Shown here one piece after another: positions 39,874 through 49,179 of a DNA stretch of 64,000 bases. The position numbers and the translations under genes are program-made. Origin of the DNA: Actinomycetota bacterium (GTDB taxonomy: Bacteria > Actinomycetota > Acidimicrobiia > Acidimicrobiales > Iamiaceae); the NCBI GenBank assembly GCA_016185275.1, contig JACPNX010000023.1, forward strand, positions 124,001-188,000, written 5' to 3'. Every line of letters starts with the position of its first letter. Within the stretch, counting starts at the first letter, position 1. A model generated the notes under the pieces. That model did no database searches. It had not been told where the DNA came from and saw only the letters and a list, made by a program, of their open reading frames with translations.

Positions 39874-40854
39874 TCAACCCTCGAGAGGATCGGCGACCCA
39901 CTCGATGAACGCTCGCCGGAGCATCTCGGCCAGCGCCGGGGTGGCCAGCACGACCTTGGCCGGCGGCCCGATCTCGCAGACGACGGACGGCATCCGGGTC
40001 TCACGCAGAACCGGCAGTCGCATGGGCAGGACCGCTCCCGCGCCGCCGAGCACTCCGCTCAGCGCGGTTGCCGTCACCTCCGCCAGGTGCGCTCCCCCAG
40101 CGGAGGCGAAGACGGCCGTGCCGTAGTACGCGCACCGGCAGCCGGGCTCGTCCCACAGCTGCAGGCCGATGTAGGCGTCGGCCCCGAACTCATTCGCCTC
40201 CGATGCGTGCTGCGAACCGTCCGGGTGCTGGCAGAGGATGACTCTGGCCCCCGCTTCGGTGACCGCCCTGCCGGTGGCGGAGGCCAGGGCGGCCAAGCCT
40301 CCGTACTCGCCGACCACCAACCGCCTGCCCGCAAGCTCGCGCGGAGCCGTGCGCAGCCGCTCCCTCTCGACGACGCCGCCCTTCACCTGGCCGGGCGCCC
40401 GGTCCCCGAGCCGGCCCAGGCTGGCGACGGTCTCGGGGCCGCATATTCCGTCCGTCGTCAGCCCGGTGTTGCGCTGGAAGTCGAGGAGCGCGTTCGCCGT
40501 TCGGGGCCCGAAGATTCCGTCGACCCGGTCTGCGAAGAAGCCGAGCCGGCCGAGCGCCTCCTGCAGTGCGGCGACGTCATCCCCGCGCAGCATCGGCGTC
40601 CGGTTGTAGAGCAGGCGCTCCCCCGGCCGGTATCCGGCCTCGACCAGCGCAGCCCACGTCTGGCGCCCGCAGATGCCGTCACTCCGCAACCCGCGGGCGG
40701 CCTGGAACCGCCGCACCGCTTCGACCGTGGCCTCGCCGAAGCAGTTGCCATCGGCCAGGCAGCCGGCGTATCCCGCGCGCGCGAGGCGTCGTTGGAGGTC
40801 CGCGACGGCCTCTCCGTCGTCACCGGCCCTGAGCGGCAGAGTGACGCGATCCAT
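39874..40854 (-). CDS. CwlM-like protein: two PG-binding domains plus pseudo-amidase
   Basis: This encodes 326 residues from the ATG at 40854. Two peptidoglycan_binding_1 domains (AVADLQRRLARAGYAG, about 12-75; DVAALQEALGRLGFFADRVDG, about 90-150) precede an Amidase_3 fold. Active amidases carry Zn ligands in DPGHGG and SIHANA motifs. Here these positions read VGEYGG and GLQLWD, while the C-terminal CEIGP Glu is kept. It is therefore probably catalytically dead. Its place beside trxA, trxB and parB matches mycobacterial CwlM, a non-enzymatic regulator of MurA. No signal peptide is present, in keeping with cytoplasmic action. Confidence 0.85.
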   Translation of the reverse strand: MDRVTLPLRAGDDGEAVADLQRRLARAGYAGCLADGNCFGEATVEAVRRFQAARGLRSDGICGRQTWAALVEAGYRPGERLLYNRTPMLRGDDVAALQEALGRLGFFADRVDGIFGPRTANALLDFQRNTGLTTDGICGPETVASLGRLGDRAPGQVKGGVVERERLRTAPRELAGRRLVVGEYGGLAALASATGRAVTEAGARVILCQHPDGSQHASEANEFGADAYIGLQLWDEPGCRCAYYGTAVFASAGGAHLAEVTATALSGVLGGAGAVLPMRLPVLRETRMPSVVCEIGPPAKVVLATPALAEMLRRAFIEWVADPLEG

Positions 40855-40952
40855 GGTGCGCCATCCTCCCACGCGCGATGCGGGGCGCCCGCACAGCGAG
40901 CGCCCCGCAATCGCATCCCGTGCCGAGTGGGTTGGTGGCTCCGGCCCGGCGG

Positions 40953-41344: not shown

Positions 41345-42304
41345 TCAGGCGGTGCCTGCCTCGAGCCACCGCTCGGCGTCGATCGCGGCGGCGCACCCGG
41401 ATCCGGCAGCGGTGATGGCCTGGCGGTACACGTGATCCTGCACGTCGCCGCAGGCGAACACGCCGTCGACGTTCGTACGGGTGCCCGGGCCGGTGATGAG
41501 GTAGCCGCCGCCGTCCATCTCGAGCTGCCCCTTGAAGATGTCGGTGTTGGGCCGGTGGCCGATGGCCACGAACAAGCCGGTGGCCGCAAGCGGTGTGCGC
41601 TCACCGGTGAGGACGTCGCGCAGCGTGACCCCTTCGAGCTTGGTGTCGCCGTGGAGAGCCTCGACCACGGAGTTCCAGCGGAAGCGGATCTTGTCGTGAG
41701 CGAGGGCTCGGGCCTGCATGATCTTCGACGCCCGTAGCTCGTCTCGGCGGTGGACGATGGTGACGGAACGGGCGAACTTGGTGAGGAACAGCGCCTCCTC
41801 GACCGCCGAGTCGCCTCCGCCCACCACCACGATGTCGTGGTCACGGAAGAAGAAGCCATCGCAGGTCGCGCAGGTCGACACCCCATGGCCGACCAGCTCC
41901 TGCTCGCCCTCGAGGCCGAGCATCACGGGCTTCGCGCCGGTCGCGACGATGAGCGCTCGAGCCAGGTGGGTCGGCTCGTCGGCATGAGGGTCGCCGACCC
42001 AGAGGCCGAACGGAGACCGGGCCAGATCCACCCGCTCGACGCGGGCCATCTCGTAGGTCGTTCCGAAGCGTGCGGCCTGGTCCCGAAAGCGGGCCATCAG
42101 GTCGGGACCGAGAACCCCGTCGGGGAACCCCGGGAAGTTCTCCACCTCCGTGGTGGTCATGAGCGCGCCGCCGGGTTGGTCCGTCGTGGACGAGGGTTCG
42201 CCCTCGATCACCAGTGGCCCGAGGTCGGCCCGGGCTGCGTACAGCGCGGCAGTCAGGCCCGCCGGCCCCGAGCCGACGATGATCAGGTTCCTGACCTCGC
42301 TCAC
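41345..42304 (-). CDS. trxB: Thioredoxin reductase
   Basis: This encodes 319 residues. FAD-binding [17 protein letters not shown], redox centre CATCDG (residues near 140), NADPH-binding [15 protein letters not shown], and C-terminal [16 protein letters not shown] are all present. It regenerates thioredoxin with NADPH. It forms the trxB-trxA-cwlM row seen in mycobacteria. Confidence 0.96.
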
Positions 42305-42368: not shown

Positions 42369-42797
42369 TCAGGCGCGCCGGGGCCGTGCGGCACGCCGAA
42401 GCGCCACCAGACCGGCGGTGCTGGCCATGGCGCCGACGAGTGCCTCGGCGATCCACAGGCCCCGCCCGGGCCGGTTCAGGTCGACGACACCGAGCAGGTC
42501 GGCGATGGCGATGCTCAGGCCCCGCACGAGGAGGATGGTGACCAGCACGAGAGCGGTCGTCCCGAGGATGGCCGCCAGCGCGCCGTAGACGAGGGCGCGG
42601 GTTGCGGTGATCGCCGGACCCGTCGTCTTGTCGCGGACCTGACCGACGACGCGGACGATGGTGTCCGCCGCCTGGGCGGGCCAGGCTTCACCGCCCGATG
42701 GGCCGCTCGGCTGAGGAGCGGTCGTCCCGGGCCGCGGCGGCGCGCCCAGATCGGGGCGACCGGTGCGGTGGGAGTGGTCGGCAAGTGGCTCGGCCAT
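42369..42797 (-). CDS. Small two-helix membrane protein
   Basis: This encodes 142 residues from the ATG at 42797. A disordered Pro/Gly N-terminus is followed by two hydrophobic segments (about 70-95, ALVYGALAAILGTTALVLVT, and about 110-130). The KTTGPAITATRALVYG stretch resembles phage-holin-superfamily or Pro-rich membrane proteins of actinobacteria. Function unknown. It lies between trxB and the anti-sigma gene. Confidence 0.65.
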   Translation of the reverse strand: MAEPLADHSHRTGRPDLGAPPRPGTTAPQPSGPSGGEAWPAQAADTIVRVVGQVRDKTTGPAITATRALVYGALAAILGTTALVLVTILLVRGLSIAIADLLGVVDLNRPGRGLWIAEALVGAMASTAGLVALRRAARPRRA

Positions 42798-42881
42798 GGG
42801 CGGCGAGCCTAGCCACGGGTGCCGGCGCACGGTGCCTCGTAGCTGCGACAACGCCACCGGCTCAGCGCCGACGGCCTCGGG

Positions 42882-44443: not shown

Positions 44444-45985
44444 TCAGGAGAGGGTCACTTCCTCGATCCGCACCTCATGGTCTGGCCCGGTGCGGGTGAT
44501 CCAGATCAGCAGCGCTCCCAGATCACGGTCGACCGGGACGGTCATGGTGCCGCCCGGCGCGACCCGGACCGGGGTGATCGGCTGCGCCCAGCCTGGCAGG
44601 CCGGGCGGCGCCGCCCCCGTGTCGGCGGTGCCGTAGAGCGAGAAGGACCACCCGGGGGTCGACGACGTCATGCGCACGGTGTTGACCCTGCCCGTGGCCC
44701 GCAGCCGGATCACGAGTCCGACGCCCGGCTTGAGGTTCGTGATGTCGGTGTCGCGGTACCGCTCGGTGGTCCATGCGGTCCGGTTGTTGCCGTCCACGGC
44801 CAGGCGGGCCTCAGCGTTGTGCTCCTGGCCGGGAGCCGGCTTGCCGTACGGGTCGTAGGCGGCGGCGCCGGCGATCGACACGGACGCCTGGGCGACGTTG
44901 CGGTCTCGACCCGCGGTCGACAGGAGGGTGGCGAGGACGAGCGCGCCAGCGACGACGAGCGCACCGACGAGCACCGGCAGCCGGCGCCGGCGCGTGCGGC
45001 GTCGGTGTGGCGCCGGCGGACCCTGGTGGCTGGCATCCGGGTCGGCGCTCGCGTCGCCGGACGGGCCACGGGCCGATCGGCCGGCGCCGGGATCCTCCCC
45101 GGCGTCGCCGGTCCGCGCGAAGGGAACCGGTCCCGCTGGCCCGACGTGGCGCGTCGCCTCCAGCGAGGTGTCCGCAGCCAGCAGGGCGGTGCGCACATTG
45201 GCGGCGGTGGGCGGCCGATCGCCCGGATACCGCTCGAGGCAGCGGGTCACGATCGAGTCGAGTGACGCCGACAGCTCGGGCCGAACCGAGCGCAGCGGGC
45301 GCGGCGGACGATGCAGGCGCGCCAGCGCGGTTGCCGTCTCCGAGTCACCGGTGAACGGCGGCTCGCCGGTGAGTGCCTCGTAGAGGACCACGCCGAGGGC
45401 GTAGACGTCGGTCCGGGCATCGACCGTCGCGCCTTCGACCTGTTCGGGAGCGAGGTACTTCGCGGTGCCCAGCATCGACCGTTCGGTCGTCAGGTCAGCT
45501 CCTTCGGTCGCCTTCGCGATGCCGAAGTCGGTGACCAGCACGCGCCCCTCGTCGGACAGCAGGATGTTGGCCGGCTTGACGTCGCGGTGGATGATGCCGG
45601 CGGTGTGGGCGTGGTCGAGCGCGGCGGCGACCTGCGCTCCGACGGCCACGACGTCGTCCGGGTCCAACCGTCTCCGACGGTCGAGGTGGCGACGGAGCGT
45701 CGTTCCCCGGACGAGCTCCATGACGATGGCGTCGATTCCGCCCTCACTGCACGTGTCGTAGACCGACACGATTGCCGGGTGGGACAGGCGGGCGGCGTTG
45801 ATGGCTTCGGCGCGGAACCGGGCGACAAAGCCCTCGTCGGCGGCCAGGTTGGCGTGCAGGACCTTGACCGCGACCGGCCGGGTGAGCGTCTCGTCGAGGG
45901 CCTCCCACACCTGGGCCATGCCCCCGGACGCGATGGGCGCCCGCAGGCGGTACCGCCCGCCGATCAGCGCGCCTGCGCCCACCAT
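44444..45985 (-). CDS. Membrane Ser/Thr protein kinase with discoidin-like exported domain
   Basis: This encodes 513 residues from the ATG at 45985. The kinase domain is intact: glycine loop IASGGMAQVW, Lys41 in VAVKVL, HRDVKPANILL, VTDFGIAK and YLAPEQ. A basic juxtamembrane stretch precedes one membrane helix (about 370-390). The exported part has AYDPYGKPAPGQEHNAEARL followed by an AVDGNNRTAWTTERY stretch, the discoidin-like domain found at the C-terminus of mycobacterial MviN/MurJ-kinase fusions. There it is joined to MurJ and the kinase is degenerate; here it is a stand-alone, apparently active kinase. It is next to the SigM-like pair. Confidence 0.88.
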   Translation of the reverse strand: MVGAGALIGGRYRLRAPIASGGMAQVWEALDETLTRPVAVKVLHANLAADEGFVARFRAEAINAARLSHPAIVSVYDTCSEGGIDAIVMELVRGTTLRRHLDRRRRLDPDDVVAVGAQVAAALDHAHTAGIIHRDVKPANILLSDEGRVLVTDFGIAKATEGADLTTERSMLGTAKYLAPEQVEGATVDARTDVYALGVVLYEALTGEPPFTGDSETATALARLHRPPRPLRSVRPELSASLDSIVTRCLERYPGDRPPTAANVRTALLAADTSLEATRHVGPAGPVPFARTGDAGEDPGAGRSARGPSGDASADPDASHQGPPAPHRRRTRRRRLPVLVGALVVAGALVLATLLSTAGRDRNVAQASVSIAGAAAYDPYGKPAPGQEHNAEARLAVDGNNRTAWTTERYRDTDITNLKPGVGLVIRLRATGRVNTVRMTSSTPGWSFSLYGTADTGAAPPGLPGWAQPITPVRVAPGGTMTVPVDRDLGALLIWITRTGPDHEVRIEEVTLS

Positions 45986-46040
45986 CGGAGCGACCGTACG
46001 CCACACGAACGAGTGGCGGGCTCCGGTCGCTCCGGTCCGG

Positions 46041-46883
46041 TCAGGCAGGGTCCTGCCAGGTGAGCCCGATGATGCGGGGTCCCCCATGGGTGCCGATGAC
46101 CGGGCCGATCGGAGTCACGGTGATCTGGTCCCGGGGGTGGCGCTCGGCGATCAGGTCGAGGAACTCGTCGAGATCGGGCGCGAAGCCGTGCACGACGGCG
46201 AGGCGCTCGACGGCGCTCTGCTCGAACAGCCGGTCCCGCAGCCACCGCAGCGCCTTGCCGCGGGTGCGTTGCTTGCCCGCCTCCTTTACCTCGCCGGTCG
46301 AGAGGTCGACCAGCGGTTTGATGGACAGCATGCCCCCCAACAAGGCCTGCGCGTTCCCGATGCGACCGCCCTTCTTGAGGTTCTCGAGCGTGTCGAGGGC
46401 ACCCACGACGTGGGTTCGTGCCCGCTCGGCCTCCACCCGGGCGACGACCTCGTCCGCGCTCGCGCCGGCCTCGGCCGCTTCGGCGGCGGAGACCACGAGG
46501 CTGCCGAGGCCCATCGTGATCGACTTCGAGTCGAGGACGCGCACGTCGAGATCGCCCTGGAGCTCGCGGGCGGCGTTCTCTGCCGACTGCATCGTGGCCG
46601 ACAGAGCGGCCGAGAGGTTGATGCACACGACCGCATCTGCTCCGTCGGCAGCTGCCTTGTGGAAGGCCTCCGCGAACCGGCCGGGAGCAGGTGCGGCCGT
46701 CGACGGCAGGGTCGGGCTCGTGGCCATCCGGTCGTAGAACTCCTGCACCGACAGCTGCTCGCGGTCCACCAGCTCCTCGTCGCCGAAGCGAATGGCGAGC
46801 GGAACGATCTCGATCCGGTGCGCTCGGACCAGGTCCTCGGGCAGATCGCAGGCGCTGTCGGTGACGATCCGGACTCCGGCCAT
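46041..46883 (-). CDS. DegV family fatty-acid-binding protein
   Basis: This encodes 280 residues, ATG at 46883 behind GGAGGAA. It begins VRIVTDSACDLPEDL; KSITMGLGSLVVSAAEAA and NLKKGGRIGNAQALLG follow, the DegV/FakB signature. These proteins hold a fatty acid for FakA kinase. It occupies the spot where mycobacteria have murJ. No fakA-like gene is visible nearby. Confidence 0.9.
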   Translation of the reverse strand: MAGVRIVTDSACDLPEDLVRAHRIEIVPLAIRFGDEELVDREQLSVQEFYDRMATSPTLPSTAAPAPGRFAEAFHKAAADGADAVVCINLSAALSATMQSAENAARELQGDLDVRVLDSKSITMGLGSLVVSAAEAAEAGASADEVVARVEAERARTHVVGALDTLENLKKGGRIGNAQALLGGMLSIKPLVDLSTGEVKEAGKQRTRGKALRWLRDRLFEQSAVERLAVVHGFAPDLDEFLDLIAERHPRDQITVTPIGPVIGTHGGPRIIGLTWQDPA

Positions 46884-46983
46884 GCGTGTTCCTCCGGTGG
46901 CGGTGCGGGCGGCCGCAGCCGCCCGGTGCGGGACCTGCTGTGACCCTGCCCCGCTCGGGAGCGTTACGTGCCGGTCAGGACGG

Positions 46984-49179
46984 CTACCGGCCGGCCGGGA
47001 TCTCTGCGGCGGCCGGGCCGGTCCCCGCGGGCGCCGCCCGAGGCTCCCCGTCGCCGCCGGTCGGTGCCTGCGGGCCGGCTCGGCGGGTCCGCCGGCTGCG
47101 GCGCCAGTGCCGGGCCCACCACAGCAACAGGAAGAGCAGGGCCCCGATCGACAGCGCGGCACCCAGGCCGGACACCGCCGTGGAGCGGACCGTGTACCGG
47201 GTGGTGGCCAGCACGATCCCGCCGTCGGGTGAGGTCACCCGCACGAGCAGCGGAGACGTACCGGGGCTTCGGGCTCTGACCCGGATGCGGAACCGCTGGG
47301 TACCCGGCTCCAACCGCTCGGAGACGGTCGCGCCCAGCGGGAACTCGAGACGTGACCCCGCCTCGAGGGTGACGACCACGTCGATGGGTCGGCTCAGGCG
47401 GTTGCGAACGACGACAGGCAGGTCGGTGTCGCGGGCGGTCAGGGTGACGGTCTGGCGGGCCGGAGCGTCGATGGCAGCGGTCCGCCGCCCGATGGCTGCG
47501 AGCACGGCCGCGGGGTACGCCAGGCGCTGAGCCGGCCGGAGGTCGTCGGCCGCCGAGACATCCAGGCGCTGGTCGAGAGCCGCCGGCAGCGGATCTGCCT
47601 TCGGGAGCAGGGAGGCGAACGAGGCAACCTGGCGCCGCGCCGCCTGGACGGAGGCGGGGTAGCCGTCGAGGTCGTTGCCGGATGGTCGTGGTCTGCGGGC
47701 TCCTTCGGAGCGCAGGCCATCGAACAGCCCGGCCAGGGTGGTCGGCCGTACGACCCGGCCGCCGGCGGTCAAGCCGGCCAGGACGGCCTCGAGATCGGGC
47801 CCTGCGACCTGCCAGTCGGGGCCCGGCGCGACGACCACACCCCGGGCCGCACCGGGGTCGCTCTGCCAGATCGTCACCAGATCGGCCAGTAGACGATGGG
47901 CGGCCAGGACCGGATCGGCCCGCTGGGTCAGCAGTGCTCCTTCGCTGCTGTCGATCACGACCAGAGGTGTCGCCAGGCCGGTTTCCACGGAGTAGGGCAG
48001 CCGAGCGGGCGGGGCGCCGCCGGTGGAGCGGCTGTCAGGACTGGTTGCCCCCGGGTCCGCGACGACCTGGTCCACCCCGGTGAGGCGCATGAGGCGGGCG
48101 GCGTCGCGTGTCAGCGGCCCACGCAGCAGGAAGGTCCGCCCGTCCGGCCGCTTCAGTCGCGCCGTCAGCGCCGCGGTGCCGCGATCGCGCAAGCGCGTGA
48201 GCTCCTCGGAGAGGCCCGCGTCCACCCAGTCGCTGAGGCGGACGTCGACGTACGGCTCCGCGATGAGCTGCCGTCCCGCCAGCGCGCGGCGGAGGCTGTC
48301 GAGGGCCGACGCCGCATCGCCGCCCTGGCGGGCGAGCGCGTCGACGGTCTCGGGAGTGGCGGCCACGGAGACCGGCACGCTGGGGTGCGCTCGCAGCGCG
48401 AGGGCGGTGGCGGCCACGGACCGCACGACCCGCGCCGGCAGCCGCGACGTCGCGCCGCCGGGCGACGTGGTGGGCGGCGCGTGGACCGGCACCACGAGGG
48501 CGACGCGGAGCGGGGCCACTTCGGCGTCCGGCGCAGGCAACCGGACGAGATGGGTGACGATCTGGTTCAGGCTGCTGCCCTTGGCGTCGACCAGATCGAC
48601 GGCGAGGGGGTAGGCCCCCGCGCCACCCAGACCCCTGGACAGGCCGAGGTTTCCGGGACCGGTCACGTTGTGCGACAGGAGCCCGACGGTAAGGGTCGCC
48701 CGCTTCGTGCCGGCGCCGGCGTTGTTGTTGCCCGCGCTCGCCGGGAGGAGGTCGAGGGCAACCGGCGGCACTGAGGCGAGGCTCTCGCCGAGGTCGGCGC
48801 CGAACAAGGTCCGGAGGAAGGTGGGTTGGTCCTCGACCCGCTGGTACAGCCGAGCCTGGATCCGTGCGCCCCGGGGAGCGCCGGTCACGTCGAGGACGAG
48901 ACGGAAGACGCCGTCGCGGGCGACCCAGGCCGACTGCTCGACGACGCGAAGCCCCGGCCGCGGGGTCGGGCTCGCAGTCGCGGCCCGAGGGTTCGCTCGG
49001 GCGGCGGGGGCCGGGACCGCTCCGGCCACTCCGACTGCTCCTGCGGCGGCCGCGGCTCCCGGCAGCGTGGAGGGCTGCGGTGCGGACGTGAGTGCGAGCG
49101 ACGCAGCCAGGGCCGCCAGCAGCGACCGCGCGCACCGCCGCCGCCGGACCACGGCCCGGGGCCCCCGGTGTGCCGTCAT
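46984..49179 (-). CDS. DUF6049 secreted/membrane protein (Rv3909-like position)
   Basis: This encodes 731 residues. An Arg-rich start followed by SLLAALAASLALTSAP indicates a signal peptide. A beta-rich exported region spans most of the protein. One C-terminal membrane helix (GAALSIGALLFLLLWWA) lies near residue 680, with a cytoplasmic Pro/Gly tail. Synteny with Rv3909, upstream of the murJ/sigM block in mycobacteria, supports DUF6049. Function unknown; peptidoglycan-related transport is a guess. Its start overlaps the GNAT stop by ATGA. Confidence 0.75.
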   Translation of the reverse strand: MTAHRGPRAVVRRRRCARSLLAALAASLALTSAPQPSTLPGAAAAAGAVGVAGAVPAPAARANPRAATASPTPRPGLRVVEQSAWVARDGVFRLVLDVTGAPRGARIQARLYQRVEDQPTFLRTLFGADLGESLASVPPVALDLLPASAGNNNAGAGTKRATLTVGLLSHNVTGPGNLGLSRGLGGAGAYPLAVDLVDAKGSSLNQIVTHLVRLPAPDAEVAPLRVALVVPVHAPPTTSPGGATSRLPARVVRSVAATALALRAHPSVPVSVAATPETVDALARQGGDAASALDSLRRALAGRQLIAEPYVDVRLSDWVDAGLSEELTRLRDRGTAALTARLKRPDGRTFLLRGPLTRDAARLMRLTGVDQVVADPGATSPDSRSTGGAPPARLPYSVETGLATPLVVIDSSEGALLTQRADPVLAAHRLLADLVTIWQSDPGAARGVVVAPGPDWQVAGPDLEAVLAGLTAGGRVVRPTTLAGLFDGLRSEGARRPRPSGNDLDGYPASVQAARRQVASFASLLPKADPLPAALDQRLDVSAADDLRPAQRLAYPAAVLAAIGRRTAAIDAPARQTVTLTARDTDLPVVVRNRLSRPIDVVVTLEAGSRLEFPLGATVSERLEPGTQRFRIRVRARSPGTSPLLVRVTSPDGGIVLATTRYTVRSTAVSGLGAALSIGALLFLLLWWARHWRRSRRTRRAGPQAPTGGDGEPRAAPAGTGPAAAEIPAGR

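Follow-up and report, generated by a model that had tools for sequence, protein, structure and literature searches.

The pseudokinase of MviN, a familiar example of a dead kinase, controls wall synthesis via PknB and FhaA. In MviN (Rv3910) of M. tuberculosis, this pseudokinase and the ectodomain that follows it are fused to MurJ in a single polypeptide. MviN is included in ActPs3, an actinobacterial pseudokinase family with degraded motifs and a C-terminal transmembrane segment, and the available portion of the paper describing the family states that members other than MviN have no carbohydrate-binding domain (PMC12599244). An unfused arrangement also appears in a 2023 paper, in which the legend to S6 Fig describes, for Actinobacteria with an unfused mviN, a kinase-family gene on its downstream side (PMC10166564); the split state is therefore already in print. 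Here we analyzed a 64,000-nucleotide stretch (the window) from the genome of an Actinomycetota bacterium of the class Acidimicrobiia, in which genes for a DUF6049 protein, DegV, a transmembrane Ser/Thr kinase and a SigM-like sigma factor follow one another on the minus strand.

Our best explanation, which we consider fairly probable as a whole, is that the window kinase is a free-standing relative, with its motifs intact, of the pseudokinase and ectodomain fused to MurJ in Mycobacteriaceae-type genomes, that it serves as a glycan sensor, and that kinases of this kind were first active, then dead and then fused. The shared ectodomain, the shared gene position, the intact motifs and a MurJ that is separate and elsewhere can be read from the sequences themselves. 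The locus of PMC10166564 is of the same kind, with a separate kinase gene after mviN, and the available portion of that paper does not take up catalytic residues, the ectodomain, Acidimicrobiia or DegV, nor loci from which mviN has been lost. Our literature search turned up no account of a catalytically active kinase at this locus or of the ectodomain shared with fused MurJ, and none of DegV or of MurJ loss there. Apparently new are intact catalysis in many deep lineages, repeated catalytic loss, death before fusion and the departure of MurJ.

A separate kinase and its discoidin-like ectodomain

The window kinase keeps the catalytic Lys/Asp/Asn/Asp residues, and its motifs (the GGMAQV loop, VAVK, HRDVKPAN, DFG and APE) are all intact. 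Hydropathy indicates a single transmembrane peak at residues 338–356, followed by a 151-residue outer domain. ActPs3 proteins are likewise actinobacterial with a C-terminal transmembrane segment; however, the family is defined by degraded motifs and an activation-loop deletion (in the available portion of PMC12599244), whereas HRDVKPAN, DFG and APE are all present here and the separate relatives that we found carry a carbohydrate-binding-type ectodomain. The comparison with MviN is similar. The two share the neighbourhood from DUF6049 to TrxB (as found in the genome family that we label f59), the kinase fold, one transmembrane segment and the C-terminal ectodomain family, while the window kinase differs in being separate, in keeping its catalytic motifs and in having MurJ elsewhere in the genome.

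In order to characterize the ectodomain, we modelled it with AlphaFold2 from 35 aligned sequences (mean pLDDT 94.2). Its best solved matches in Foldseek were chitosan-binding modules, CBM32 and other discoidin-like folds, and superposition on 4zy9_A with VIA-align (Z 15.8, rmsd 2.2, 126 residues aligned) identified a jelly-roll fold. A sequence search of the ectodomain alone against the PDB found no relative (best E 0.24). Thus, as judged from the model, the discoidin-like C-terminus is confirmed as a CBM32/F5-8C fold, for which sugar binding is predicted. The original prediction had described a separate kinase with a discoidin-like part and all catalytic residues, and both the motifs and the fold comparison agree with it.

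The same domain ends the fused proteins. A profile built from loci of the class matches the C-termini of the fused f59 MurJ proteins at 67–90 bits, and the fused MurJ open reading frame (ORF) ends in this ectodomain in 4 of 4 f59 loci. Because the f59 motifs VALT and LSIDHP match the M. tuberculosis and Nocardia MviN motifs printed in the available portion of PMC12599244, we take f59 to be Mycobacteriaceae in the wide sense. Since the kinase ectodomain is the domain that ends fused MurJ, the kinase appears to be a free relative of MviN's regulatory half, as had been predicted. Searching with our ectodomain alignment (A1) gave matches in 20 of 25 genomes, single in 17 and double in 3; in the window's own genome (G000) the second match is weak. 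That the ectodomain was found once in 17 of the 20 matching genomes favours orthology. In one genome, a second kinase bearing the same ectodomain lies off the locus (L185, G194:C1:1567826-1569568).

The kinase domain itself is PknB-like, with PknB as its top solved-structure matches, and it scores 376.5 bits against the PASTA-kinase family NF033483. This resemblance would suit a stray PknB-type kinase, unrelated to MviN, that landed in the locus by chance. We find that account barely credible, since the score falls below the cut-off of 450, Pfam detects no PASTA repeat, and the ectodomain is common to fused MurJ, nearly single-copy and carried at a conserved locus position. Similarly, the likeness to the PASTA kinases PknB and StkP is confined to the kinase domain (PDB and NCBIfam searches), the window kinase having a CBM32-like ectodomain in place of PASTA repeats. 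PASTA ORFs and PASTA-type kinases are present elsewhere in the window's genome; the locus kinase would therefore be an additional envelope kinase. On the same grounds, we rejected it as the PknB orthologue.

MurJ and DegV at the locus and elsewhere in the genome

As the original prediction stated, no MurJ lies between the DUF6049 gene and the sigma gene of the window. It had further proposed that DegV occupies the place of MurJ and that the locus represents the pre-fusion state of the mycobacterial system. To place the locus among its relatives, we counted loci as complete when they ran from DUF6049 to TrxB; loci truncated by the end of a contig, or in which DUF6049 or TrxB went unmatched, were left out (24 of 80 named, 12 of 40 from the phylum sample and 4 of 41 from the class). 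Within the class, 77 of 148 genomes gave a DUF6049 match; 40 neighbourhoods were fetched, giving 37 complete loci of 41 with the window included. MurJ is present in 22 of these 37, DegV in 33, the kinase in 27 and the sigma factor in 25, and the maps show the order DUF6049-MurJ-DegV-kinase-sigma with individual genes missing in places.

The absence of MurJ and the separate kinase with intact motifs would both suit replacement of MurJ by DegV in a pre-fusion locus. Gene order in relatives nevertheless rules out DegV as a replacement: MurJ is flanked there by DUF6049 on one side and DegV on the other, which makes DegV a native neighbour and not a substitute. Of the 77 class genomes, 66 carry DegV no more than 7 kb from DUF6049, 2 carry it elsewhere and 9 yielded no match to it. 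In the wider phylum DegV occurs in just 1 of 28 complete loci, and it is thus a class-typical neighbour. Additionally, separate dead kinases sit nearer to the fused ones than the window kinase does (see below), and we consider the replacement account very improbable. Judged by gene order, MurJ departed the window locus when DegV was already resident. Nor does the absence of MurJ look ancestral, given the 22 class loci that have it and the position of one of the genome's MurJ proteins among locus MurJs.

The window's genome (92.7% complete, 50 contigs) contains two MurJ genes off the locus, on contigs C11 (588 aa) and C26 (566 aa). A kinase tail is absent from both, Pfam showing MurJ alone, so the finding that would have refuted the original prediction, a MurJ with a kinase tail elsewhere in this genome, did not turn up. 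In a quick MurJ tree without bootstraps (109 rows, after removal of duplicates and 22 Streptomyces rows), the C11 protein falls in a supported set of 31 rows made up of MurJs of the class, 20 in-locus and 11 off-locus, while C26 belongs to a separate off-locus group. The neighbourhood of C11 MurJ is partly common to G110, of the same family, and to G083 and G071, of the same order. On this sequence evidence, the most straightforward account is that the MurJ of the locus relocated to C11 in the distant past. C11 MurJ may instead have been acquired by transfer and have replaced the locus copy, given that a different branch holds the in-locus MurJs from the order's other families (f3, f5, f6, f8 and f10). 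The moved MurJ adjoins a gene that looks PspA/IM30-like by eye (L151, G000:C11:14000-26000), a neighbour that recurs in two relatives.

Loss of MurJ from the genome altogether was rejected, as this genome has two copies and all 28 genomes searched keep MurJ, including all 21 picked for a locus without it. Weak MurJ profile scores in L187, L193, L088 and L109 were likewise rejected as signs of decaying genes, since the tree places these proteins in another MurJ subtype. In two relatives known from metagenome-assembled genomes (MAGs), a different MurJ subtype occupies the slot between DUF6049 and DegV (L187:5132-6925 and L193:4157-6361). Both group with off-locus MurJs of other lineages, an apparent swap of MurJ in place.

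DegV proteins have a FakB-type fatty-acid-binding fold. The window's DegV is the only DegV gene found in its genome, which has a FakA-like gene on C9; extra DegV copies are common in other class members. Against the FakB1 equivalog NF038249 it scores 172.7 bits, below the cut-off of 350. The sequence data suggest that this genome's one FakB-type fatty-acid-binding protein belongs to an envelope locus.

Judged by the PcnA protein encoded nearby, the named organism closest to the window is Aquihabitans sp. G128 (74%); next come MAGs, many of them named Acidimicrobiales or Acidimicrobiia, in keeping with an Acidimicrobiia-type genome. Two irregularities were seen among records of the locus. The Aquihabitans sp. 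G128 record (L186) has DUF6049 and the kinase-ectodomain split over several frames, perhaps through sequencing errors. Additionally, public MAG records titled Bifidobacterium breve or Acidobacteria/Acidobacteriota (L215, L223, L196, L202, L235 and L246) carry the locus or its PcnA at Acidimicrobiia-like identity, so their names look wrong.

Fusion and loss of catalysis across the phylum

In the phylum sample, PF19516 occurred in 136 of 296 genomes; 40 neighbourhoods were fetched, of which 28 were complete. MurJ and the kinase share a single ORF in 4 of 27 loci checked, all of them from f59 (L084-L087), and are separate in the other 23, which include named Streptomyces and Nonomuraea. A separate kinase gene is therefore the rule outside one family.

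Of 89 locus kinases, 59 retain all four catalytic residues (Lys/Asp/Asn/Asp). Within the class the proportion is 27 of 28, the exception being L062 (L045, broken across two frames, was excluded from this count). The 30 degenerate kinases comprise all Streptomyces rows, the four fused proteins and scattered others, among which L079 and L107 are only partly degraded. Outside the Actinomycetes group, degenerate locus kinases, some of them half degraded, are found at L062, L075, L078, L111 and L107, apparently as independent losses of catalysis. On the ectodomain tree, the intact or degenerate label takes 8 changes (7–9 over bootstraps), 2 to 3 of which are forced by supported branches.

A quick kinase tree of all 93 rows joined long branches. 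We therefore rely on a more careful tree of 59 of the 93 rows, without L062, L075, L239, L246, some near-copies and some distant unlinked kinases. In this tree, the 4 fused kinases and 7 separate dead kinases (Streptomyces, Nonomuraea, f63 and f66) lie on one side of a branch supported at 99/92, and the separate dead kinases form one group inside that set (99/90). If the root is placed outside them, the most economical account is that the kinase lost catalysis before it was fused. In the ectodomain tree, f63 joins the fused rows (100/90). The state nearest fusion is thus probably a separate dead kinase beside MurJ, as in Streptomyces and others, and not the state of the window. The predicted pre-fusion state holds for the window only in the broad sense that is true of every unfused locus.

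Trees and synteny together suggest a history in which an active, separate kinase would have come first and catalysis would then have been lost several times. In Actinomycetes, the dead kinase would have remained beside MurJ until, later and in a single family, the two were fused. The window's lineage would have kept DegV, the kinase and SigM in place while MurJ departed. More tentatively, the regulatory half of mycobacterial MurJ could be what is left of an ancient kinase that belonged to the SigM locus, sensed the envelope and is still active in Acidimicrobiia and other deep actinobacterial lineages, its catalysis having been lost repeatedly at the locus (the 8 changes above) before fusion, the dead kinase being already a useful scaffold. 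A free kinase with an intact active site helps to order the steps by which the MurJ regulator arose. If our explanation is true, the steps from live sensor to dead scaffold to fusion can be compared among living species, and should Acidimicrobiia still hold a live relative of the pseudokinase, it would allow the original signal and substrates to be assayed directly.

Possible signalling and the neighbouring genes

The kinase would act as a single-pass membrane sensor, with an outer glycan-type module, one membrane pass and an inner kinase. The CBM32-like domain may bind an envelope glycan, either a wall polymer or a lipid-linked precursor, and the inner kinase may phosphorylate proteins of envelope control in trans; the likeliest targets would be other products of the cluster (the anti-sigma factor, SigM or the CwlM-like protein) and/or MurJ. 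We infer the kinase's signal, its substrate and any SigM link, and prefer a route that leads to the local SigM branch and to envelope proteins.

Alternatively, the kinase could phosphorylate the adjoining SigM or its anti-sigma factor, like known kinase-sigma pairs, and be unrelated to MurJ, which we regard as rather unlikely. The kinase is retained where MurJ departed the locus. Among 101 of the 121 complete loci (17 Streptomyces loci and 3 short-TrxB rows were dropped), the sigma gene is found in 60 of 72 loci with the kinase and 5 of 29 without it (Fisher p 6e-10, on raw counts inflated by related rows). Divergent sigma factors may have escaped these counts, as the profile used for them derives from sigma factors of the window's type. 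The window sigma has the SigM equivalog NF007225 as its best match among 89 NCBIfam families (138.5 bits, below the cut-off of 190). The ECF43 pairs EcfP/PknT and EcfK/PknS similarly have a Ser/Thr kinase gene adjoining an extracytoplasmic function (ECF) sigma gene; however, ECF43 members lack the DAED motif (in the available portion of PMC8999054) and an anti-sigma partner, whereas the window sigma retains an acidic DALD stretch, judged by eye, and has an anti-sigma-like gene with a weak family match. An ECF43-type mechanism is therefore less likely.

Several results weigh against the explanation that we favour. The kinase-sigma link includes only 5 independent pairs, too few to test, with the sigma factor following the kinase in 2.5 of 5 on average and going the opposite way in 0.3; this counts against the kinase-sigma alternative as well. 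In-locus MurJ is found in 35 of 72 kinase loci and 24 of 29 kinase-less ones, so the two do not co-occur and gene order lends no support to a direct kinase-MurJ link. In the ectodomain tree, whose deep branches are weakly supported, the Streptomyces rows stand well apart from the fused ones, and the window ectodomain has no supported neighbour. Lastly, the kinase phylogeny with MviN C-termini, which the original prediction proposed, joined fused to separate dead kinases, but a single clade of all locus kinases was neither shown nor rejected (p-AU 0.12), and three kinases, those of G006, G012 and G010, do not group with the main clade. Across loci, the kinase, SigM and MurJ are separable, which cautions against assigning MurJ function to the whole cluster.

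Table 1. Features of the locus, in transcription order (window coordinates).
Feature	Position	Strand	Evidence and remarks
GNAT-like frame	ends at 49176	-	first in transcription order; no Pfam match
DUF6049 protein, 731 aa	46984-49179	-	PF19516 48.3 bits, cut-off 30.1
DegV, 280 aa	46041-46883	-	PF02645 269.1 bits; TIGR00762 283.8 bits, above cut-off 99.7
Transmembrane Ser/Thr kinase, 513 aa	44444-45985	-	PF00069 164.7 bits
Kinase ectodomain, CBM32 / F5-8 type C (discoidin-like)	44444-44899	-	AlphaFold2 model, Foldseek, VIA-align, profile
SigM-like ECF sigma factor, 217 aa	43742-44395	-	PF04542 and PF08281
Anti-sigma-like membrane protein, 287 aa	42882-43745	-	zf-HC2 weak, 20.2 bits, below cut-off 22.2
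Small frame	42369-42857	-	no Pfam match
Thioredoxin reductase TrxB	41345-42304	-	ORF; position conserved across loci; bounds the syntenic block used

By hydropathy, the DUF6049 protein has a hydrophobic segment at its N-terminus and one C-terminal transmembrane segment. The kinase ORF has an alternative upstream ATG at 46087 that is likewise open. The anti-sigma-like gene overlaps the end of the sigma gene, and its product has a transmembrane peak at residues 107–125. Its N-terminal zinc-finger-like part contains zero cysteines; a zinc anti-sigma factor is therefore unlikely. TrxB is followed by TrxA and a CwlM-like protein, with ParA/ParB farther on and on the opposite strand. The CwlM-like protein (39874-40872, minus strand) matches peptidoglycan-binding models only and no amidase model in Pfam, and may be a non-catalytic regulator of the CwlM type.

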